A stretch of DNA of 64,000 bases. It comes from Paracoccus yibinensis. GTDB taxonomy: Bacteria > Pseudomonadota > Alphaproteobacteria > Rhodobacterales > Rhodobacteraceae. Made by a program: the position numbers and the translations under genes. The notes below the pieces were generated by a model. It did no database searches. It was given only the letters and a program-made list of their open reading frames with translations, and was not told the DNA's origin. The stretch spans positions 248,001-312,000 of the forward strand of contig NZ_JAVCWH010000004.1 in NCBI RefSeq assembly GCF_030846195.1, read 5' to 3'. Below are positions 35,850 through 46,227 of the stretch, piece after piece (position 1 is the stretch's first letter; each line of letters begins with the position of its first letter).

Positions 35850-36914
35850 ATGGATAGGGTGAACGACATGCTGGACCTGCCTGATCACGATACGCTTTAT
35901 GCCGCGCTTGTGGCGCGCGACCCCGCCTGGGAAGGGCGCGCCCTGGTGGGCGTTGCCACCACCGGCATCTTCTGCCGCCTGACCTGCCCGGCCCGCAAGC
36001 CGCTTGCCAGGAACTGCCGCTGGTTCGCATCCGCGAAGGACGCGCAGGCCGCAGGCTTTCGCCCCTGCCTGCGCTGTCACCCGCTTGGCGCGACTGCCGA
36101 AGGCGATCCGCTGGTCCGCGACCTGCTGGCCCGGCTGGAGGAAACCCCGGACCGCCGCTGGTCCGAATCCGACCTGCTGGCGCTTGGACATGACCCTTCG
36201 ACCGTGCGGCGGGCCTTCAAGCGGCATTTCGGGCAAAGCTTCCTGGAGATGGCGCGCGCGGCACGGCTGCGCAGCGGCATGTCCAGCCTGGTGAAAGGAT
36301 CGGCGATGATCGAGGCGCAGCTGGACGCGGGATTCAATTCGGCGTCAGGCTTCCGGGCGGCCTTCGCGCGGCTGTTCGGCCATGCGCCGCACCAGTTGCG
36401 GCAGGGGTCGGACCTGCTGGCCGACTGGATCGACACGCCCCTGGGCGGCATGATTGCCATTGCCGACGACCAGGCGCTGCATCTTTTGGAGTTCATCGGC
36501 CGCAAGGCGCTGCCCGAAGGCCTGCGCCGCCTGTCCGCGCATGTGGACGGTCGCGTCGGCCTGGGCCGCACACCCGTCCACGACCTGACCGAGGCGCAGT
36601 TGGCGGCTTATTTCGCGGGCCGGGCGCCGCGTCTGGAGGTGCCCGTAACCCTGCACGGCACGCCTTTCCAGCAGCAGGTCTGGCGCGCGCTGCAAGCGAT
36701 CCCGGCGGGCGAGACGCGCAGCTATCTGCAATTGGCCGCCGCCATCGGGCGTCCCACGGCCATCCGCGCCGTTGCCCGCGCCAATGCCACGAACCGCATC
36801 GCCCTTGTGGTGCCCTGCCATCGGGTGATCGGCGCGGACGGCACCCTGACCGGCTATGCGGGCGGGCTGTGGCGCAAGGAAAAGCTGATCGCGATCGAGC
36901 GCGGCTATGCCTGA
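35850..36914 (+). CDS. ada: Bifunctional Ada: methylated-DNA methyltransferase and transcriptional activator
   Basis: A 354-aa adaptive-response protein. The N-terminal AdaA zinc domain holds Cys42, Cys46, Cys73 and Cys76; Cys42 (GIFCRLTC) is the methylphosphotriester acceptor. An AraC-type helix-turn-helix follows (about residues 95-190). The C-terminal O6-methylguanine methyltransferase domain carries the acceptor Cys in VPCHRVIG. The start at 35850 has a weak RBS; Met7 is an alternative. No alkA or alkB is adjacent. Confidence 0.92.
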   Translation: MDRVNDMLDLPDHDTLYAALVARDPAWEGRALVGVATTGIFCRLTCPARKPLARNCRWFASAKDAQAAGFRPCLRCHPLGATAEGDPLVRDLLARLEETPDRRWSESDLLALGHDPSTVRRAFKRHFGQSFLEMARAARLRSGMSSLVKGSAMIEAQLDAGFNSASGFRAAFARLFGHAPHQLRQGSDLLADWIDTPLGGMIAIADDQALHLLEFIGRKALPEGLRRLSAHVDGRVGLGRTPVHDLTEAQLAAYFAGRAPRLEVPVTLHGTPFQQQVWRALQAIPAGETRSYLQLAAAIGRPTAIRAVARANATNRIALVVPCHRVIGADGTLTGYAGGLWRKEKLIAIERGYA

Positions 36915-36930
36915 TTGCGTCCCGCGAGCG

Positions 36931-36978
36931 CCGGGGGCGCTTCGCCCCCCGGACCCCCCGAGGATATTTGAACCAAGG
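36931..36978 (+). repeat. Dispersed GGATATTT intergenic element, copy 4, with hairpin
   Basis: Hairpin CCGGGGGCG / CGCCCCCCGG (36931-36952), then ACCCCCCGAGGATATTTGAA. Located 17 bp after the ada stop and likely acting as its terminator. Confidence 0.7.
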
Positions 36979-37004
36979 CAAAACGGCAGGGGGGTGATTC
37001 CGGC

Positions 37005-37033
37005 TTGACGGCCCGCGCGGCTTCCATTAGGGA
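37005..37033 (+). promoter_or_regulatory. Predicted sigma-70 promoter of rpmB
   Basis: TTGACG (37005-37010), a 17-bp spacer, then TAGGGA (37028-37033), about 100 bp upstream of rpmB. A leader hairpin GGGCGC/GCGCCC (37051-37071) follows, with CTTTCACTTT after it. Confidence 0.5.
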
Positions 37034-37135
37034 CGCGCAAACGGAATTCCGGGCGCTGCCTCGCGGCGCCCTTTCACTTTGGGCCGGAACCCCCTGCCGG
37101 GACCGCCCGCATAGCAAAGACGAAGGATCAACACC

Positions 37136-37426
37136 ATGTCGCGCGTCTGCGAACTGACCGGCAAAGGCCCGATGACCGGCAACAATGTGAGCCACGCCAA
37201 CAACAAGACCCGTCGCCGGTTCCTGCCGAACCTGAACGAGGTCACGCTGATGTCCGACGCCCTGGGCCGCAGCTATTCGCTGCGCATTTCGGCCGCGGCG
37301 CTGCGTTCGGTCGATCACCGGGGCGGCCTGGACGCCTTCCTGGCCAAGGCGAAGGATGCCGAACTGTCGGACCGTGCCCTGAAGATCAAGCGCGAGATCG
37401 CCAAGGCCGACGCGCCCCAGGCCTGA
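37136..37426 (+). CDS. rpmB: 50S ribosomal protein L28
   Basis: A 96-aa ribosomal protein beginning [20 protein letters not shown], the L28 signature, with [11 protein letters not shown] following. Length is normal for alphaproteobacteria. Monocistronic: a predicted promoter lies about 100 bp upstream and a clear terminator 26 bp downstream. RBS ACGAAGGA. Confidence 0.97.
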
Positions 37427-37451
37427 TCCAGCCGATTGACTGCGGCATTAT

Positions 37452-37480
37452 GCCCCGTCGTTTCCACGGCGGGGCTTTTG
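37452..37480 (+). terminator. Rho-independent terminator after rpmB
   Basis: Stem GCCCCGTCG / CGGCGGGGC (9 bp with one T-G pair, 6-nt loop) followed by TTTTG. Confidence 0.85.
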
Positions 37481-37523
37481 CATGTCGGTTGCCTTCGTCC
37501 GCCGCTTGGCTGATGGTCCCCCC

Positions 37524-37874
37524 ATGCGACACCCGGTCCATCTTGCGCTGATTCTGTGCCTTGCCATCACCGGCATCGGCCTGGGCGGGGCGCGCGGCAC
37601 CGTTATCCCCGCCGAACAGGTCGTGCTTTGCACCGGCCATGGCGTCGTGGTCGTCGATCACCCGGATGCGCCCCGATCCCTGCAGATCTGCCCGGACATG
37701 GCCTTGGCCCTGCTGGCCGCGCTGCAAGATGCGCCCTTGGATGGACCTGTCATCCGCGGCTTCGGCACGCTGGCGCGCTCCGTGTCGGCCTTGCCCCTGC
37801 GGGACCAGCAATCCCCCCGGCCCGCGGCGCGCGATCCTCCTCGGTCACGGTTTTCCGCAATCAGAACCGTTTGA
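37524..37874 (+). CDS. Small exported protein upstream of the copper chaperone
   Basis: A 116-aa protein with a signal peptide (MRHPVHLALILCLAITGIGL) and a VVLCTGHGVVVVDHPD...ICPDMA segment with two cysteines. This recalls DUF2946-like small proteins found beside PCuAC genes, although the usual second CPxC is CPDM here. An ATG at 37482 would add 14 residues before the signal peptide. Positioned 17 bp before the PCuAC gene, so a shared copper-related role is likely but unproven. Confidence 0.6.
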   Translation: MRHPVHLALILCLAITGIGLGGARGTVIPAEQVVLCTGHGVVVVDHPDAPRSLQICPDMALALLAALQDAPLDGPVIRGFGTLARSVSALPLRDQQSPRPAARDPPRSRFSAIRTV

Positions 37875-37891
37875 CACGAAGGACAACACAG

Positions 37892-38347
37892 ATGATCCGC
37901 ATGACCCTGGCCGCCCTGGCGGTCCTTTCCCCCGCAGCCGCGCTTGCCGATGACGGGCTGATGATCCGCGACGCCTATGTGCGCAGCACCAATCCCAAGA
38001 CCGCCGCCGCCTTCATGGTGGTGGAAAACCAACAGGATGCCGAATGCCGCCTGACGGGCGTGTCGTCGGACGCGGCCGAAGTGGTCGAATTGCATACCCA
38101 TGCCGAGGTGGACGGCGTGATGAAGATGCAGAAGGTCGAGGGCGGCATCGCCATCCCGGCCGGGTCCGAACATGCCCTGGCGCGGGGCGGCGACCATGTG
38201 ATGCTGATGGGGCTGACCAAGCCTCTGGCCGAAGGTGACACCGTCGCCCTGACGCTGGATTTCGGAGACTGCGGCACCCATCCGGTCGAGGCGGTGCTGG
38301 ACAACGACCGTGCCGAGGAAAGCCACGGAGGCCATCAGGGCCACTAG
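37892..38347 (+). CDS. Periplasmic copper chaperone PCuAC family
   Basis: A 151-aa exported protein (signal peptide residues 1-20). PCuAC proteins deliver Cu(I) to the CuA centre of cytochrome oxidase. Copper-binding His and Met residues appear in ELHTHAEVDGVMKMQ and GDHVMLMGL; a His-rich tail (ESHGGHQGH) adds further ligands. RBS AAGGACAACACAG. Its TAG stop shares CTAG with the convergent esterase gene. Confidence 0.9.
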   Translation: MIRMTLAALAVLSPAAALADDGLMIRDAYVRSTNPKTAAAFMVVENQQDAECRLTGVSSDAAEVVELHTHAEVDGVMKMQKVEGGIAIPAGSEHALARGGDHVMLMGLTKPLAEGDTVALTLDFGDCGTHPVEAVLDNDRAEESHGGHQGH

Positions 38348-38973
38348 CCCGCCAGCATTTCCCGGACCTTCGGTCCAAGCGCGGCCGTCATCAGCCGGAC
38401 GCCAGCGGCGTTCGGATGGATGCCGTCAGCCAGCAGATAGTCGCGGTGCCGAACCTTGGGCAGGGCGGCAAGCGGGGCGTAAAGGCTGGGCAGCAGCACC
38501 GCGTCGTGACGGGCGGCCAGGCGCGGCCAGATGGCGCGCCAGGCCTGTCTCCAGCGGGCTTCGCCTGGAATGGGGTTCAGCCCGACCAGCAGCAGGGGGC
38601 GGCCGTCCGCCCCGGCCTGGGTCAGGATTGCGTCCAGGTTCGCCTCGGCCCGAGCGGCGGACCAGCCCAGCAGCATGTCGTTGCCGCCAAGCTCCACCAT
38701 GACGGCATCGGGACGGTGGCGGCGCAGCGAAAATCCGATGCGCACCCGCCCGCCATAAGTCGTTTCGCCCGACAATGCCGCCGGGATGATCGTGGCGGGC
38801 GTTTCGTCGCGGTCAAGCCAGGCCTGCAACTGGGGCACCATCCCCTGATCCTGCGCCAGGCCATAGCCTGCGAACAGGCTGTCCCCGAAGGCCAGCACGC
38901 GGGGTCGCGGCGGGGCAGCCCCAGCCAGGGCAATCGCGCCTGCCCCGGCCAGGACGCCCCGCCGCCCGATCAT
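38344..38973 (-). CDS. tesA: Arylesterase / lysophospholipase TesA-like (SGNH hydrolase)
   Basis: A 209-aa exported SGNH hydrolase. A twin-Arg-like n-region ([18 protein letters not shown]) suggests a Tat or Sec signal. Block [13 protein letters not shown] has the nucleophile Ser, block III is [10 protein letters not shown], and block V is DGIHPN. TesA-like enzymes hydrolyse acyl-CoA and aryl esters. The start overlaps the copA stop (ATGA), so it is co-translated with the copper ATPase, with no obvious functional link. Confidence 0.88.
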
Positions 38974-41213
38974 CGCACGCCCCGCAGGCGCAGGGCGTTG
39001 CCCACCACGCAGACCGAAGACAGCGCCATGGCCCCGGCCCCCAGCATGGGCGACAGTTGCGGCCCGCCGAAGGGCACCAGCACGCCCATGGCGATGGGGA
39101 TCAGCGCGGTGTTATAGGCGAAGGCCCAGAACAGGTTCTGGCGGATGTTGCGCATGACCGCTCTCGACAGGCGGATGGCGCGCGGCACCCCTGCCAGATC
39201 GCCGGACATCAGCACCAGATCAGCTGATTCGATCGCGATGCTGGTGCCGGTGCCGATGGCGATGCCGGTTTCCGCAGCCGCAAGCGCCGGGGCATCGTTG
39301 ATCCCGTCGCCCACGAAGACGGAACCTGCGCCCATGTCGCGGATCGCCTCCAGCTTGTCGCCGGGCATCAGGCTTGCCCGCACGTCGTCGATCCCCAGCC
39401 GCCGGGCCACGGCGCCCGCAGTGCCCGGAACGTCGCCGGACAGCATCGCCGTCTTAAGGCCCATGCCGTGCAGGGCCGCGATCAGGTCGGGCGCGTTGTC
39501 GCGAATGGGGTCGGCCAGGGCGAAGCTGGCGACATGGCGGCCATCGACGGCCAGATGGACCGGGGTCGCGCCTTGCGCCGCGGCTTCCTCGGCCGCCGTG
39601 CGAAGGGCGGGGGCAGGGGAGATCCCGGCGTCGGACAGGGCGGGCAGGTTGCCGATCAGCAACCGGCGCCCCTCGACCACGCCCGACAGGCCGCGCCCGG
39701 CTGTGGCCTGGATGTCGCTTGCCGGGGGCAGGTCCAGCCCGCGTGCGGCCGCACCGGCGACGATGGCCGCGCCAAGGGGATGTTCAGACCGCGCCTCGGC
39801 GGCGCCGGCAAGGCGCAGGGCCTCGTTCTCGGCAATGCCGTCGGTCTGGATCGCGACCAGTTCCGGGCGCCCGCGCGTTAGGGTGCCGGTCTTGTCGAAG
39901 GCGATCAGCCGGGCGTTCGACAGGCGCTGCAGGGCCTCGCCCCGCCGGAACAGCACGCCCAGTTGCGCGCCGCGCCCGGTGCCGACCATGATGGACACCG
40001 GCACGGCCAGCCCCATCGCACAGGGGCAGGCGATGATCAGCACGGCAACCCCCGCGACAACCGCATGGGCCAGGTCGGGGCCGAAGACCAGCCACAGTGC
40101 GAAGGTCAGCGCCGCCAGCCCGATCACCACGGGCACGAAGACGCGGGTGATGCGATCCACCAGGGCCTGCACCGGCAGCCGGGCGTTCTGCGCGCCCTCG
40201 ACCATCGCGACGATCCGCGACAGCGTGGTTTCCGCGCCCGTGGCGGTCACGCGATAGGTCAGCGCGGCGGTGCCGTTCACCGTGCCGCCCGTCACCGGGT
40301 CGCCGGGGGATTTCTCGACGGGCAGGGGCTCGCCGGTCAGCATGGATTCGTCCACATGACCCCGGCCTTCGGTGACGACGCCGTCGACGGCCACCCGTTC
40401 GCCGGGCGCCAGCAGCACCAGATCGCCCGGCCACAGATCGGCCACGGCCACGGGGACAGGCTTGCCGTCGCGCAGGATGGTCGCACGATCCGGGGCCAGT
40501 TCGATCAGCGCGCGAATCGCGGCGCCGGCCTGGCCCTTGGCCCGGGCTTCCAGCCAGCGGCCCATCAGGATCAGGGTGACGATGACCGCCGCAGCTTCGA
40601 AATAGACATGGCGGGACGCGGGCGGGATCACACCGGGGGCCAGCACCACTGCCGCCGAGAACAGGAACGCCGCCCCGGAGCCAAGCGCGACAAGGCTGTT
40701 CATCTCGGGTCCGCCGCGCAGCAGGGCGGGAATGCCGGTGGTGAAGAACCGCCGCCCCGGCCCGGCCAGGACAAGCGCCGTCAGGACCATCTGCATCCAG
40801 TTCAGCGGCGCGGTGCCGACCTGCGCGTGCAGCCAGTGGTGAAAGGCGGGAACCAGATGGCCGCCCATTTCCGCCGCAAAGACCGGCAGGGTCAGGACAA
40901 GCGCCGTCAGGAAGGCGCGCTTCAGGGTCGCGGCCTCGTCGGTCCTGGTGACCGGAGCGGCGTCCTGGGGAACGGTCGCCGGATAGCCCAGCCTGGTCAC
41001 GACCTCGGCCAGGTCGGCGGGGGACAGGGTGGCGGCGTGGCGGATGCTTGCAGTTCCTGCCAGCAGGTTGACCTGCGCGTCCGCGACGCCGGGACGGGCT
41101 GACAGGGCACGCGCGACGCGGCCGGAACAGGCGGCGCAACTCATGCCTTCGACGGACAGGCGGGTGGTGATCAGGTCGCCCGGAACGGGCAGGTCAGATG
41201 ATTGAACGGTCAT
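38970..41213 (-). CDS. copA: Copper-exporting P1B-type ATPase CopA
   Basis: A 747-aa heavy-metal ATPase. One N-terminal metal-binding domain (GMSCAACSG, Cys26 and Cys29), eight membrane helices with the CPC ion site ([13 protein letters not shown]), TGE in the actuator domain, the phosphorylated Asp in DKTGT, the SEHPLG motif and [11 protein letters not shown]. It exports Cu(I) from the cytoplasm. The start at 41213 has RBS AGGAAA; a start 27 bp upstream is less likely. That RBS lies within the 3' arm of a 10-bp inverted repeat. Confidence 0.93.
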
Positions 41214-41220
41214 GATGCTT

Positions 41221-41258
41221 GTTTCCTGAATTCGTGCCAAGGGACGGGTTCAGGAAAC
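41221..41258 (-). promoter_or_regulatory. Hairpin pairing the copA ribosome binding site
   Basis: On the copA mRNA strand, GTTTCCTGAA and TTCAGGAAAC form a perfect 10-bp stem with an 18-nt loop. The 3' arm contains the Shine-Dalgarno AGGAAA, and the stem ends 7 nt before the AUG. Formation would hide the RBS. Confidence 0.5.
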
Positions 41259-41610
41259 GGGGCGGCGCCTGGGGGCGCAGGGGCGCCCGGCGGGGGAACT
41301 GCGCGGCGATCAGCGCGCGCGGATCACGGCGCGGGGCGCAAAGGGGGCGTGCCAGGCCTGGGCGCGCATCCTGGTGGCAGCGGCAGGCCCGATCGCCCCG
41401 ACCCCTGCACAGATGCGCGGGCCGCCGCGGCGGGCGGCGCTTCGCATGGCAGCAGGGGGGGCGCACGGAAACCATATCCAGCAGATGTGTGCCAGAAGGA
41501 TCGGGGTCAAGGGCTATTTCCCGCCGAAACGCCGTCGTGAGTTGCAACAAGGGGCCGTCCCTTGCTATGGCGGGGCGAGAGCAGAAGAACACCAGACCCA
41601 CAGGATCACC
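41259..41610. other. Divergent intergenic region copA / L,D-transpeptidase
   Basis: About 350 bp without a convincing gene on either strand. It is very GC-rich, with GGCGCC-containing inverted repeats near 41265-41290. No clear CueR palindrome was found by eye. A 66-codon minus-strand frame with a TTG start (41310-41510) is not supported. Confidence 0.45.
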
Positions 41611-42183
41611 ATGAATCGCCGTGAGATGATGTCGCTGGCGGTGCCGCTGATGGCCGCCGCCTATTTCGCCCCCTCGCTGGCCTTCTCGCAGGAAGCCGCC
41701 CCACAACAGGCCCGCGATCCCTATGCCCCGACCGAAGTCGCCATCCGCGAGGATTTCGAGGTCGGCAGCATCGTCGTGGTCAGCAAGGACTTCTTCCTTT
41801 ACCATGTCATCGCACCGGGCCGGGCCGTTCGTTACGGTGTGGCCGTGGGCACGGCCGAACTGGTCTGGAAGGGCCGCGCGACCGTGGGCCGCAAGGTCGA
41901 ATGGCCGTCCTGGACGCCCACGCCGGACATGATCAAGCGCAAGCCCCAGCAATACGCAAAATGGGCCAACGGGATGCCCGGCGGTCCGCAGAACCCGCTG
42001 GGGGCACGGGCGCTGTATCTTTACAACGACAAGGGCCAGGACACCGCGATCCGCATCCACGGCACGACCGAGCCGGGATCCATCGGCCGCGCCGTATCGA
42101 ACGGCTGCCTGCGGATGCGCAACGAGGCGGTGATGGCCTTGTATGACCAGGTGCCCGTCGGAACGCCCGTCTACGTCTATTGA
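41611..42183 (+). CDS. L,D-transpeptidase (YkuD family)
   Basis: A 190-aa exported enzyme (signal peptide residues 1-26, FSQ-E region) that makes 3-3 peptidoglycan cross-links or anchors proteins to peptidoglycan. The YkuD catalytic motif is seen as IHGTTEPGSIG...VSNGCLRM with the nucleophile Cys. The preceding GMPGGPQNPLGARALYLY is typical. RBS CACAGGATC. mnmH starts 1 bp after the stop. Confidence 0.92.
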   Translation: MNRREMMSLAVPLMAAAYFAPSLAFSQEAAPQQARDPYAPTEVAIREDFEVGSIVVVSKDFFLYHVIAPGRAVRYGVAVGTAELVWKGRATVGRKVEWPSWTPTPDMIKRKPQQYAKWANGMPGGPQNPLGARALYLYNDKGQDTAIRIHGTTEPGSIGRAVSNGCLRMRNEAVMALYDQVPVGTPVYVY

Positions 42184-42184
42184 T

Positions 42185-43234
42185 GTGCCCCTGAGACTGA
42201 CACAGGTTGCGGACCCTGCCATGGCTGGGTTCGACGACATCATCGATGTGCGGTCGCCCGCCGAGTTTGCCGAGGATCACCTGCCCGGCGCGATCAACCT
42301 GCCCGTGCTGGACGATGCCGAACGGGCGCGCGTCGGAACCATCTACAAGCAGGTTTCCCCCTTCGATGCCCGCAAGATCGGCGGCGCCCTGGTGGCTGCC
42401 AATGCGGCGCGCCATATCGCCGGGCCTTTGGCCGACCGCGACGGAAGCTGGCGGGGGCTTGTCTATTGCTGGCGCGGCGGGCAGCGGTCGGGCAGCTTCA
42501 CGACCATCCTGTCGCAGATCGGCTGGCGGGTGGACCGGATCGACGGCGGCTACAAGGCTTGGCGCGCGCTGGTGGTGGACCGGGTGCAGAACCAGCCCGT
42601 CGCCGCGCCCGTGATCGTGCTGGACGGCAATACCGGCAGCGCCAAGACGGCAATCCTGGGGCGGCTGGCCGCGCGCGGCTGGCAGGTGATCGACCTGGAG
42701 GGCCTCGCCAACCATCGCGGCAGCCTGTTCGGCGGCCACCCCGAGGGCCAGCCCAGCCAGAAGCTGTTCGAAGGGCGGCTGGCCCTGTCGCTGGAAGCCC
42801 TGGATCCCGCCCGCCCAGTCCTGGTCGAGGCCGAAAGCAGCCGCATCGGTCGCGTGACGGTGCCCAAGGCCATGTGGCAGGCGATCTGCGCCGCACCCCG
42901 GCTGCGGCTGGAGGTGCCGGTCGCCGCCCGTGCGGCCTATACCGCAGGCGCCTATGAGGACATGGTGGAGGACCCCGCCCGGGTCGAGGCGATCGTGGCC
43001 GCGCTGTCGCCGCTGCATCCCGCAGAGCGGATCGAGGCCTGGCAGGCTGCGGTCGCGGCGCGCGATTGGCGCGGCCTGGCCGAGGGGCTGCTGCGCGACC
43101 ATTACGACCCGCGCTATCTAAAGCACCGGCTGCGCTATGCCGAGCGTGAACAGGCGGTCGTCACGCTGGACGACCTGCATGACCTGGAGGCAGCGGCGGG
43201 ACAGGTCGAGGCGGCACTGGCGCGCCTGGCCTGA
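42185..43234 (+). CDS. mnmH: tRNA 2-selenouridine synthase
   Basis: A 349-aa enzyme (SelU/MnmH) replacing sulfur by selenium, via a geranylated intermediate, at the wobble 2-thiouridine of tRNAs. The N-terminal rhodanese domain has catalytic Cys95 in YCWRGGQRS; the C-terminal domain has a P-loop-like LDGNTGSAKTA. The GTG start at 42185 follows the upstream stop by one base; an ATG at 42143 would overlap that gene. Use of selenium by this organism is implied but selD is not in the window. Confidence 0.9.
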   Translation: MPLRLTQVADPAMAGFDDIIDVRSPAEFAEDHLPGAINLPVLDDAERARVGTIYKQVSPFDARKIGGALVAANAARHIAGPLADRDGSWRGLVYCWRGGQRSGSFTTILSQIGWRVDRIDGGYKAWRALVVDRVQNQPVAAPVIVLDGNTGSAKTAILGRLAARGWQVIDLEGLANHRGSLFGGHPEGQPSQKLFEGRLALSLEALDPARPVLVEAESSRIGRVTVPKAMWQAICAAPRLRLEVPVAARAAYTAGAYEDMVEDPARVEAIVAALSPLHPAERIEAWQAAVAARDWRGLAEGLLRDHYDPRYLKHRLRYAEREQAVVTLDDLHDLEAAAGQVEAALARLA

Positions 43235-43261
43235 AGCCCCTGCACCGGTGGCGGAGACAGG

Positions 43262-43296
43262 AGCCTCCGGCGGGGATATTTGGGTGAAGAAGAAGC
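43262..43296 (+). repeat. Dispersed GGATATTT intergenic element, copy 5
   Basis: GGATATTTGGGTGAAGAAGA at 43274-43293, preceded by AGCCTCCGGCGG. It fills the gap between convergent mnmH and punA. Confidence 0.7.
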
Positions 43297-44097
43297 TTAG
43301 GCGTTGCGCAGGAAACGGCGGAGGATGCGTTCCAGCTTGGCGGCGCCCAGGGGGGCCATGGCCTTGGTGTGGTCGTGGCTGATCGATTCGTCCGACAGAC
43401 CCGCGCCCATGTTGGTGACGACCGAGATGGCCGCACAGCGGATGCCCAGGAAGCGGGCCAGGATGATTTCCGGCACCGTGGACATGCCGACGGCGTCGGC
43501 ACCAAGGATTTTGGCCGCGCGGATTTCGGCGGGGGTTTCGAAGCTGGGGCCCGAGAACCAGCAATAGACGCCCTGGGGCAGGGCGATCCCCTCGGCAACG
43601 GCGGCGGCGGACAGGGCTGCACGCATGGCGCTATCATGGGCGTCGGTCATGGGCACGAAGCGGGCGTCGGTCACCTCTCCGATCAGCGGGTTGGTTCCTG
43701 CGAAGGCGATGTGGTCGTTCAGCATCATCAGGTCGCCGGGCGGGATGTCGGGGCGCAGCGATCCGGCGGCATTGGTCAGGATCAGTTTGCGGGTGCCCAG
43801 GGCCGCCAGCACCTCCAGCGGCAGGCGCATGGCATCGGCACGGCCCGATTCGTAGTAATGCGACCGCCCGCCGAACACGGCGACGCGGCGGCCTTCCAGC
43901 TGGCCGATCACCAGCTGCGGCACATGGCCCGACACGCCCGCATGGGGAAAGCCCGGCAGGTCGTCATAGGGGATCGCCACGCCATCTACGGTGCCCGACA
44001 GGTGCCCCAGGCCGGATCCCAGGATCAGCCCATATTCCGGGGCGGCATCGCCCGCGCGGGCGCGGATGATGCGGGCAAGCTCAACGCTCTTTGACAT
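43297..44097 (-). CDS. punA: Purine nucleoside phosphorylase
   Basis: A 266-aa trimeric-type (PNP/MTAP family) phosphorylase splitting purine nucleosides to base and ribose-1-phosphate. Motifs: GLILGSGLGHL, GRSHYYE, TNAAGSL, SGPSFETPAEIRA and GMSTVPEIILA. The start with RBS GGGAGGAGA overlaps the upstream permease gene end by 17 bp. It is last in the BMP nucleoside transporter operon, which fits uptake followed by cleavage. Confidence 0.93.
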   Translation of the reverse strand: MSKSVELARIIRARAGDAAPEYGLILGSGLGHLSGTVDGVAIPYDDLPGFPHAGVSGHVPQLVIGQLEGRRVAVFGGRSHYYESGRADAMRLPLEVLAALGTRKLILTNAAGSLRPDIPPGDLMMLNDHIAFAGTNPLIGEVTDARFVPMTDAHDSAMRAALSAAAVAEGIALPQGVYCWFSGPSFETPAEIRAAKILGADAVGMSTVPEIILARFLGIRCAAISVVTNMGAGLSDESISHDHTKAMAPLGAAKLERILRRFLRNA

Positions 44098-45136
44098 AGG
44101 GTTCTCCTCCCGCGCGCGGGGGGATGGCGCGGCCGACAAAGCCCGCCAGAATGATCACGGTCAGGATATAGGGCAGGGCGTTCATGAACATCGACGGCAC
44201 GGTGACGATGCCCAGATCCAGGTTCGGATAGCGGTTGGCGACGGCTTCCAGCAGCCCGAACAGGAAGGTCGCGCCAAGCGCCCCCCAGGGCCGCCACTTG
44301 GCGAAGATCAGCGCGGCAAGCGCGATGAAGCCGCGCCCGGCGGTCATTTCCTTGACGAAGCCCGCCGACAGCCCGGTCGCAAGGTAAGCCCCCGCCAGCC
44401 CGCAGAGCAGCCCGGCGATCGCCACGGCGGCAAAGCGCAACCGCGTCACGGACACGCCCGCCGTATCGACCGAGGCGGGGTTTTCGCCGACCGCCCGCAG
44501 CCGCAGCCCGAAGCGCGTGCGATACAGCACCCACCAGGTCAGCGGCACCATCCCGAAGGCCACATAGACCAGGATCGTGTGGCCCGAGATCACCTCGGCA
44601 TAAAGCGGGCCGATCACCGGCACGCCCCGCAGCGTCTCGGCCAGCGGCAGGGTGATTTCGCCAAAGCGCGGCGTGGCCGTCAGGGCCGCCGCGCCATCGG
44701 GTCCGGTCACGCCCGACAGCCAGGTGCGGAACGGGTTGACCTGCGCCTCAAGTTCGGCCCCCGGCGTCAGGCTGGGGGTGCGCCCGCCCAGGCCGAAGAT
44801 CTTCTGGCCCAGCAGCACTGTCAGCCCCGAGGCCAGGAAGTTGATCGCCACGCCGGAAATCAGCTGGTTGCCCCGGAAGGTGATCGAGGCGATGCCATGG
44901 ACCGCCGACAGCATCAGCGCGCCCAGCAGGCCCGCCAGCAAGCCCAGCCAGACATTGCCGGTCAGCGCGGCCACCGTGGCGGCGGAAAAGGCCGCCATCA
45001 GCATCTTGCCTTCCAGCCCGATGTCGAAGACGCCCGCGCGTTCGGAATAAAGCCCGGCCAGGCAGGCCAGCAGCAGCGGCGTCATCAGACGCACCGCGCT
45101 GTCCAGGATTTGCAGGACGGTGTTCAGATCCATCAT
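44081..45136 (-). CDS. Nucleoside ABC transporter permease 2
   Basis: A 351-aa inner-membrane permease (BPD_transp_2 family) with about nine to ten helices. The GVFDIGLEGKMLMAAF segment is characteristic of the second permease of BMP-type (NupP/NupQ-like) purine nucleoside transporters. It starts MMDLN, overlapping the stop of permease 1 by 4 bp. Confidence 0.9.
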   Translation of the reverse strand: MMDLNTVLQILDSAVRLMTPLLLACLAGLYSERAGVFDIGLEGKMLMAAFSAATVAALTGNVWLGLLAGLLGALMLSAVHGIASITFRGNQLISGVAINFLASGLTVLLGQKIFGLGGRTPSLTPGAELEAQVNPFRTWLSGVTGPDGAAALTATPRFGEITLPLAETLRGVPVIGPLYAEVISGHTILVYVAFGMVPLTWWVLYRTRFGLRLRAVGENPASVDTAGVSVTRLRFAAVAIAGLLCGLAGAYLATGLSAGFVKEMTAGRGFIALAALIFAKWRPWGALGATFLFGLLEAVANRYPNLDLGIVTVPSMFMNALPYILTVIILAGFVGRAIPPRAGGEPYVKER

Positions 45137-46227
45137 GCGCCCCTTTTCCGCATCGCCATGAACATCCGTTCCAGCGGCACCCGCACCATGTTGTCCAAGG
45201 CGCCCGTGAACAGGATGACAAGCGCCTGGATCACGATGATCAGTTCGCGCGGGATCGAGGTCCACAGCGCCAGTTCGCCACCGCCCTGATACAGGAAGCC
45301 GAACAGCAACGCGGCCAGGAAGACGCCCAGCGGGTGATTGCGGCCCATCAGCGCGACTGCGATGCCGATGAAGCCCGCGCCTTCGACCGCGTTCAGGACC
45401 AGGCGCTCAGCCTCTCCCATCACGTTGTTGATGGCCATCAGCCCGGCAAGCCCGCCCGAGATCAGCATGGCGATGATGGTGATGCGGACGGGGCTGATGC
45501 CCGCGTAAAGCGCGGCGGGCTCGGACTTGCCGAAGGCGCGGATCTCGAAACCCAGGCGGGTGCGCCAGATCAGCAGCCAGACCAGGATGCAGGCGATCAC
45601 GGCCACGAAGAAGCTGATGTTGACGGGGGTGTTGTCGCCCCATTCGAAACCCAGGGCCAAGGCCATGTCGGACAGCTTGGGCAGGTGCGTGGATTCGGGA
45701 AAGCGGGCCGAGGCCGGGTCCATGCTGCCCACAGGGCGCAACAGGTTCACCAGGATATAGTTCAGCGCGGCGGCGGCGATGAAGTTGAACATGATCGTGG
45801 TGATCACGATATGGCTGCCGCGCTTTGCCTGGAGCCAGGCGGGGATCAGCGCCCAGGCCGCGCCGAACGCTGCGGCCCCGATCATGGCGGCGGGCAGGGC
45901 CAGCGCCCAATGCGGCAGGGGCAGGGACAGCAGCACCAGGGCCACGCCCAGGCCGCCCATCGCCGCCTGGCCCTCGCCGCCGATGTTGAACAGGCTGGCG
46001 TGATAGGCGACCATCACCGCAAGCCCGGTGAAGATGAAGTTCGTGGCATAATACAGCGTGAAGCCCCAGCCATAGCTGGACCCCAGCGCGCCGTCGATCA
46101 TCGTGGTCAGCGCCTCGGCCGGGCTTTCGCCGATGGCCAGGATCACAAGCGCCGAAATCGCCATCGCCAGCACCAGCGAGATCAGCGGTGTCAGCAACAC
46201 ATCGGCCCATTTCGGCATCTTTTCCAT
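45133..46227 (-). CDS. Nucleoside ABC transporter permease 1
   Basis: A 364-aa permease of the BMP-type importer, about ten helices. FNIGGEGQAAMGGLG is the permease signature and GRNHPLGVFLAALLFGFLYQGG the C-terminal region. It forms the channel with permease 2. A lipoprotein gene ends 4 bp before its start. Confidence 0.9.
   Translation of the reverse strand: MEKMPKWADVLLTPLISLVLAMAISALVILAIGESPAEALTTMIDGALGSSYGWGFTLYYATNFIFTGLAVMVAYHASLFNIGGEGQAAMGGLGVALVLLSLPLPHWALALPAAMIGAAAFGAAWALIPAWLQAKRGSHIVITTIMFNFIAAAALNYILVNLLRPVGSMDPASARFPESTHLPKLSDMALALGFEWGDNTPVNISFFVAVIACILVWLLIWRTRLGFEIRAFGKSEPAALYAGISPVRITIIAMLISGGLAGLMAINNVMGEAERLVLNAVEGAGFIGIAVALMGRNHPLGVFLAALLFGFLYQGGGELALWTSIPRELIIVIQALVILFTGALDNMVRVPLERMFMAMRKRGA

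Follow-up and report, generated by a model that had tools for sequence, protein, structure and literature searches.

The window analysed here is a 64,000-nt stretch of Paracoccus yibinensis (contig NZ_JAVCWH010000004.1, positions 248,001 to 312,000 of the forward strand), and coordinates are counted from its first letter. On its minus strand lies copA (38970..41213), which encodes a copper-translocating P1B-type ATPase of 747 amino acids (TIGR01511, 554 bits, cut-off 397) and starts with an ATG at 41213-41211. This start is overlapped over 20 nt by a leader ORF of 93 codons plus a stop (41194..41475, minus strand), which is read in a different frame from copA and is recognized by profile matches and by variation biased toward third codon positions. 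The leader carries the codons of a Cys motif, CRGRGDRACRCH (residues 23-34; 41374..41409, minus strand), with conserved Cys, R and H, which is the proposed metal site. Further along are its Q-A-P-P codons (residues 69-72; 41260..41271, minus strand), the proposed site of ribosome arrest with the first Pro in the P site and the second in the A site. The ORF then runs through a hairpin, which forms its 3' end: a 5' arm complementary to the Shine-Dalgarno region (anti-SD arm), GTTTCCTGAA (41249..41258, minus strand), inside the leader codons for R-F-L-N; an 18-nt loop (41231..41248, minus strand); and a 3' arm, TTCAGGAAAC (41221..41230, minus strand), which includes the copA Shine-Dalgarno sequence AGGAAA (41222-41227) and is separated from the ATG by 7 nt. 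Convergent with copA, on the plus strand, is an ORF at 37556-38347 whose C-terminal part looks, by eye, like a PCu(A)C periplasmic copper chaperone; translated in full, this ORF matched nothing in NCBIfam. The same genome also holds a broken relative of the P-type ATPase (G000:C11:367963-369112, part of it in L008), with a TGA and a TAG within one match.

The leader was followed through the genus with two profiles, A1 built from the 13 closest leaders and A2 from 28 diverse ones, which match in 80/125 and 87/125 Paracoccus genomes respectively. The 80 leaders are those used below, and the seven matched by A2 only are outside all statistics. Ten A1-negative genomes of the genus were examined: four carry a leader (G027, G098, G107 and G039, all among the seven of A2), three have copA placed straight on a promoter, and three (G036, G067 and G080) have neither. 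Among 394 genomes of the family, A1 gives two matches, both in the own genus, and A2 gives five, namely the same two and three weak ones in other genera (E ~7e-4). The latter were read as chance, since they contain stop codons inside the match and no copA was seen adjoining. The sole motif match among 79 copA loci of other genera (L043) was also put down to chance, as it lacks the Cys motif and sits at the copA start, and none of these loci, a few of which have less than 500 nt of upstream DNA, fits a second rule of at least two Cys plus the arrest motif. Plasmid searches gave no match, using a low-complexity filter that may hide such peptides. The family genomes thus yield a convincing match only in two members of the own genus. 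The leader family matched nothing in Pfam or NCBIfam; with the limit set at E 10, no Pfam family is listed for any of 28 representative leaders, the filters dropping most matches above about 0.1. Among the open-licence PMC papers listed, no title names a Paracoccus copA leader. A CopA match is listed beside 77/80 leaders, and in 79/79 readable cases the leader is followed by a CopA-type start that has a Cys-rich metal-binding motif in frame.

In the 13 closest leaders the translated block upstream of copA contains conserved RRPAHLCRGRGDRACRCHQDAR, DPRALIAAQFP and RPQAPPRFL, and ends within copA. Across the genus, all three Cys of CX7CXC are present in 80/80 leaders, followed by H in 77/80, with R between the last two Cys in 80/80; P-Q-[AG]-P-P is likewise found in 80/80 (A in 72, G in 8). 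The leader of G039, which is beyond the 80, has Q-Q-A-P-P, which suggests that Q-A-P-P may be what is essential. The distance from the last Cys to PP is 36-51 residues over the 80 leaders and 38-46 in 68 of them. Because the search profiles contain the motifs, their presence in the matches is partly ascertained; profile ascertainment is no explanation for the synonymous pattern. Codon positions 1/2/3 differ by.07/.12/.44 across the Cys block, by 0/.04/.50 across PQ[AG]PP, and by.66/.64/.65 in the four codons past PP. Change in the two motifs is thus mostly synonymous, which argues that the peptide is under selection, and from these codon patterns we regard this as almost certain. Conservation of the peptide extends as far as the arrest motif and stops there, at the beginning of the stem.

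The leader peptide is about 20% Arg and Pro-rich, and its N-terminus is not hydrophobic: the maximum 12-residue Kyte-Doolittle mean within the first 45 amino acids, which we took as the measure in place of a signal-peptide predictor, reaches 1.6 in 0/80 leaders (maximum 1.29). The leaders come in two layouts. In 27/80 the stop codon lies 2-5 codons past PP, in the region of the 5' arm; in 53/80 the leader and the start of copA share 14-58 nt. The leader studied here has the overlapping layout, with 21 residues after PP, the other long leaders having 20-33.

A promoter can be proposed directly upstream of the leader. Its putative -35 element TTGACC (41505..41510, minus strand), in a geometry recurrent among relatives, is separated by 17 nt from a -10-like element CATCTG (41482..41487, minus strand), which ends 6 nt before the leader ATG. 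In 45/80 leaders TTGA[CA]-N18 leads into CATCT or a sequence close to it, placed 12 or 13 nt upstream of the leader ATG, and this geometry predicts an mRNA on which the leader ORF starts at or close to the 5' end; judged by spacing, the leader mRNA is probably leaderless. An SD-like tetramer is found in 12/46 leaders first counted with the promoter geometry (one at another spacing) versus 31/34 of the remainder. Three genomes without the leader, G047 (L202), G048 (L201) and G096 (L209), have TTGACN-N17-CATCTG directly on the copA ATG, and copA itself may be leaderless in them. The same geometry on these copA genes supports the promoter site and indicates that copA can dispense with the leader. 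Further upstream, a block like GCAACTCACGACGGCGT at 41529-41545 recurs upstream of other leaders, and AACTCA or ACTCAA is present 40-100 nt before the leader start in 66/80; the block may be an operator, or may belong to the promoter of the divergent L,D-transpeptidase gene.

The sequence-only reading had described a perfect 10-bp stem with an 18-nt spacing and a Shine-Dalgarno sequence AGGAAA in its 3' arm. Read from the minus strand, the stem is present as described, and AGGAAA is found at 41227-41222. A perfect 10-bp stem alone is unexceptional in the window, which contains 13 perfect hairpins of at least 10 bp with loops of 3-30 nt; the chance level, obtained from 20 dinucleotide shuffles, has a mean of 5.35, a standard deviation of 2.9 and a maximum of 13. 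With up to three mismatches allowed, TTTCCTGAA-N18-TTCAGGAAA is a single site in the 4.33-Mb genome, and Rfam gave no match above the gathering score for window positions 36000-46000. The part that is above chance is comparative: the pairing of each leader's own arms, the folding z-scores, and the near-constant place of the stem after the PQAPP codons of the leader.

The 13 closest copA leaders have the hairpin and a long upstream block in common. The 18-nt loop is found also in G001, and in the remaining 11/13 it is 24 nt, a difference of 6 nt that is in frame. The 5' arm is almost invariant within this clade, which by itself would, on this alignment, show no covariation. Between lineages the sequence of the stem diverges widely and its register also differs. 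We used 79 of the 80 leaders, leaving out G086, which has no copA on its contig, and compared each 5' arm with its own 3' arm and with those of other leaders. The mean RNAduplex energy is -17.4 kcal/mol for own arms versus -10.5 kcal/mol for swapped arms. For 31 mutually dissimilar leaders, own arms give -17.2 kcal/mol against a permutation mean of -10.3 kcal/mol (sd 0.57), and 0/20000 permutations are as low. The own-arm duplex is beyond -12 kcal/mol in all leaders except one, and the folding z-score has a median of -3.9 and is below -1 in 78/79. The own arm ranks in the top 5% of partners in just 39/79 leaders and in the top 10% in 49/79.

Compensatory change, by which the sequence-only reading would have had the RNA model judged, can be looked for in a looser and a stricter form. 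In the looser form, own versus swapped arms across the 79 leaders, it is apparent. In fixed columns over all pairs, 45% of two-sided changes stay paired versus 32-43% with the partner slid, a slight excess in a comparison that is blurred because the register of the stem shifts between lineages; where the leaders are most alike (pairs 70-97% identical), pairing survives in 30% of 84 two-sided changes, which is inside the 21-55% of the slid controls. A separate count of 584 two-sided and 142 one-sided changes took in only base pairs present in both predicted structures, and is no test of covariation. Taken together, the comparison supports an RNA structure that is kept while its sequence is rewritten, and we hold it very probable that an RNA hairpin covers the copA Shine-Dalgarno sequence. 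This is the part of the earlier RNA model that the arm swaps and z-scores bear out. Of the agents proposed for opening the stem (copper, a protein, a small RNA or coupling to an upstream leader), only the last has anatomy behind it.

That anatomy can be expressed as distances from the arrest motif. In the leader studied here the anti-SD arm begins one nucleotide past the PP codons, and a ribosome arrested at PP should therefore cover the arm and free the copA Shine-Dalgarno sequence. The leading edge of a ribosome is usually 16 nt away. With the first Pro of PP in the P site, as published toeprints of RQH-type peptides (PMC10987492) and the arrest of CruR (PMC12992588) would place it, the predicted footprint would thus extend to approximately base 25, counting the first base of PQAPP as 0; this is the end of the own arm, which occupies bases 16-25. 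Over the leaders, pairing in the 5' arm begins at base 12-20, and the copA ATG is 44-51 nt past the last PP codon in 79/79, where the ATG was chosen as the in-frame ATG nearest a set distance and was the single candidate in 72/79. Folding with the bases of the predicted footprint left out raises the probability that the own Shine-Dalgarno sequence is unpaired from 0.001 to 0.47. Averaged over the 79 leaders the rise is from 0.16 to 0.50, exceeding 0.2 in 63/79 and not in the other 16. Of the bases that pair in the 5' arm, a mean of 74% are inside the predicted footprint, and just 17/79 leaders reach 80% or more, so that in many relatives the opening would be partial at most. On balance, arrest at Q-[AG]-P-P is likely to open the stem.

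These elements suggest a switch. Transcription would start at or beside the leader AUG, and a ribosome arrested at Q-A-P-P would have its leading edge over the anti-SD arm, to about its last base, releasing the Shine-Dalgarno sequence and allowing a second ribosome to begin copA. In 68/80 leaders the last Cys is 38-46 residues before PP, which would place the Cys motif approximately at the end of the exit tunnel upon arrest. There it could bind Cu(I) and stabilize or permit the arrest, so that cytosolic copper would turn CopA synthesis on. Without arrest, ribosomes would cross the stem and terminate inside copA in leaders of the type studied here (53/80), or terminate 2-5 codons past PP in the others (27/80); the stem would then re-form and copA would stay low. 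We lean towards the view that the leader is a translational attenuator of CopA, in which a Cys-rich and probably Cu(I)-binding nascent peptide arrests the ribosome and thereby turns CopA on. The choice of copper as the metal is a guess from the Cys motif and the downstream copA, and for copper as the ligand together with the copper-ON polarity we see an even chance, or one slightly better.

The polarity could be reversed, as in CruR, where in the authors' model the arrest at RAPP is relieved by copper (PMC9426467). Arrest would then be the default and copper binding would release it, so that copper either lowers copA translation or raises it via run-through and reinitiation at the overlapping start, for which the 14-58 nt shared by leader and copA in 53/80 cases would leave room. 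Repression of an exporter by its own substrate would be senseless, and by the geometry it is the arrested state that frees the Shine-Dalgarno sequence. In the 27/80 leaders that stop 2-5 codons past PP, moreover, ribosomes never arrive at the 3' arm, although there too the 5' arm would be covered briefly by a terminating ribosome. We consider this reversal unlikely. Plain translational coupling, in which there is no sensor, the stem is opened by translation of the leader, copA output is a fixed fraction of that translation and copper control is transcriptional only, is suggested by the same overlapping ORFs and by the stem on the Shine-Dalgarno sequence. Coupling of this kind requires that the arm be translated and makes no demand on the peptide. 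Change in the Cys block and PQ[AG]PP is nevertheless mostly synonymous, with free variation in the codons just past PP, and coupling alone seems to us less probable still than the reversed polarity.

The signal may also be something other than copper, such as another thiophilic metal (Zn, Ag or Hg), thiol oxidation, or the supply of charged Pro, Arg or Cys tRNA. The site is, after all, just a CX7CXCH motif, and the peptide is rich in Arg and Pro. The downstream gene is nevertheless a copper-type P1B-ATPase, a close relative of which is found at 77/80 leaders, and a different signal is in our judgement improbable to about the same degree as the reversed polarity. Finally, a perfect inverted repeat near a start codon could serve a copper regulator as a DNA operator whose half-sites lie far apart; such an operator was an alternative raised by the sequence-only reading. 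The repeat is more than 200 nt downstream of the putative promoter, inside the leader ORF, and has no second copy in the genome. Its spacing is 18 or 24 nt among close relatives, and across the genus the arms are rewritten together with their own pairing kept, which a fixed protein site would not need. The variable spacing and the joint rewriting of the arms disfavour the operator, which we regard as very improbable.

Copper export and import systems are described as transcriptionally controlled in the literature on CruR (PMC9426467). If the attenuator reading is correct, much of the genus would gauge copper on the ribosome, with an arrest motif opening the start site of the exporter, and a nascent-chain copper device without detectable similarity to DUF2946 (CruR) would be added beside CruR and CutF. 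The system would also lend itself to clean testing: about 265 nt contain the sensor, the arrest site and the output, the geometry is preserved in dozens of natural variants whose stem sequence is rewritten, and some relatives are without the leader. A more specific version would make the leaders a family of arrest peptides specific to this lineage, which sense copper and by nature have no export signal. In it, Cu(I) on CX7CXCH just outside the exit tunnel would set the arrest at Q-[AG]-P-P, and the ribosome would mask the anti-SD arm and so switch translation of the main cytosolic copper exporter directly ON. Such a solution would have evolved separately from CruR and CutF, in a genus that has CruR-like proteins as well. 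We put this version forward tentatively, as a possibility of somewhat less than even weight.

The general principle has a precedent in ermC-type attenuators, in which stalling on a leader peptide uncovers a ribosome binding site that is otherwise sequestered. There the inducer is a drug bound in the ribosome, whereas for the Paracoccus leader we propose that the nascent chain itself has a metal site. The arrest motif is of the RQH type, (R/Q/H)-(A/G/D)-(P/G/S)-(P/G), for which arrest is reported when the P site is occupied by the third codon (PMC10987492). Known peptides of this RQH/RAPP type are ApdA, ApdP, SecM and uA_RQH_Myxococcales. Q-[AG]-P-P fits the motif in 80/80 Paracoccus leaders, in 53 of which it is 20-33 residues from the end. 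In uA_RQH_Myxococcales, QAPP arrests in vitro and Q86A weakens the arrest; the same paper counts its QAPP peptide with those arresting less well in vivo than in vitro, and reports that most RAPP-like sequences tested from E. coli and B. subtilis do not arrest (PMC10987492). The RQH-type families described there were chosen with localization signals and are upstream of sec or yidC, in contrast to the Paracoccus leader with no hydrophobic N-terminus and CopA downstream.

CruR of Bordetella pertussis (DUF2946, PF11162) is a protein of 145 amino acids that is predicted to be exported, with a dispensable signal, and contains CXXC and RAPP (PMC9426467). It is followed by a 162-bp intergenic region and a TonB-dependent transporter, and its output is Rho termination (PMC9426467); ribosome arrest and its site, at RAPP, are described separately (PMC12992588). 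As in CruR, a short ORF heads a copper operon, a Cys motif precedes a RAPP-type C-terminal arrest motif, and the product would act as a nascent peptide. The differences are CXXC versus CX7CXCH, RAPP versus QAPP or QGPP, Rho termination versus sequestration of the Shine-Dalgarno sequence, and a TonB-dependent transporter versus an exporter downstream; in the published model copper relieves the arrest (PMC9426467), opposite to the direction proposed here. Descent of the leader from DUF2946 finds no support: a profile-profile comparison with 17 Paracoccus DUF2946 proteins gives a probability of 0.2% over 4 columns. The Kyte-Doolittle mean of 1.6 is reached in 15/17 of the DUF2946 fragments. DUF2946 matches occur in 30/125 genomes of the genus at E up to 0.001 and in 18/125 over the cut-off. 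The genome studied here has a DUF2946 protein of the CruR kind (G000:C62:31891-32217, L216), with a hydrophobic N-terminus, CPLC and a C-terminal RGPP, and downstream of it a gene that we take to be PepSY-like. Since this genome carries the Paracoccus leader as well, both kinds coexist.

CutF of Rhodobacter capsulatus (cutFOG) has a Cys metal motif and a Pro-rich C-terminus, and a stem-loop hides the Shine-Dalgarno sequence of a copper-detoxification gene that Cu turns on (PMC9973294). It is exported cotranslationally by SRP/Sec and senses periplasmic Cu via CxxxC, stalling not being seen directly in the work described, and its family lists admitted only proteins with a signal peptide and with PP at most 15 residues from the end (PMC9973294). 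The likeness is in a leader with a Cys metal motif and a Pro-rich C-terminus followed by a predicted stem-loop on the Shine-Dalgarno sequence of the next gene. A PP position like that of CutF is found in the 27/80 leaders with 2-5 residues after PP, and not in the leader studied here (21) or the other long ones (20-33). CutF has a Sec signal peptide, whereas a signal-like N-terminus is found in 0/80 Paracoccus leaders, and the target here is the exporter CopA. CruR and CutF are the known systems closest in their proposed working to the Paracoccus leader.
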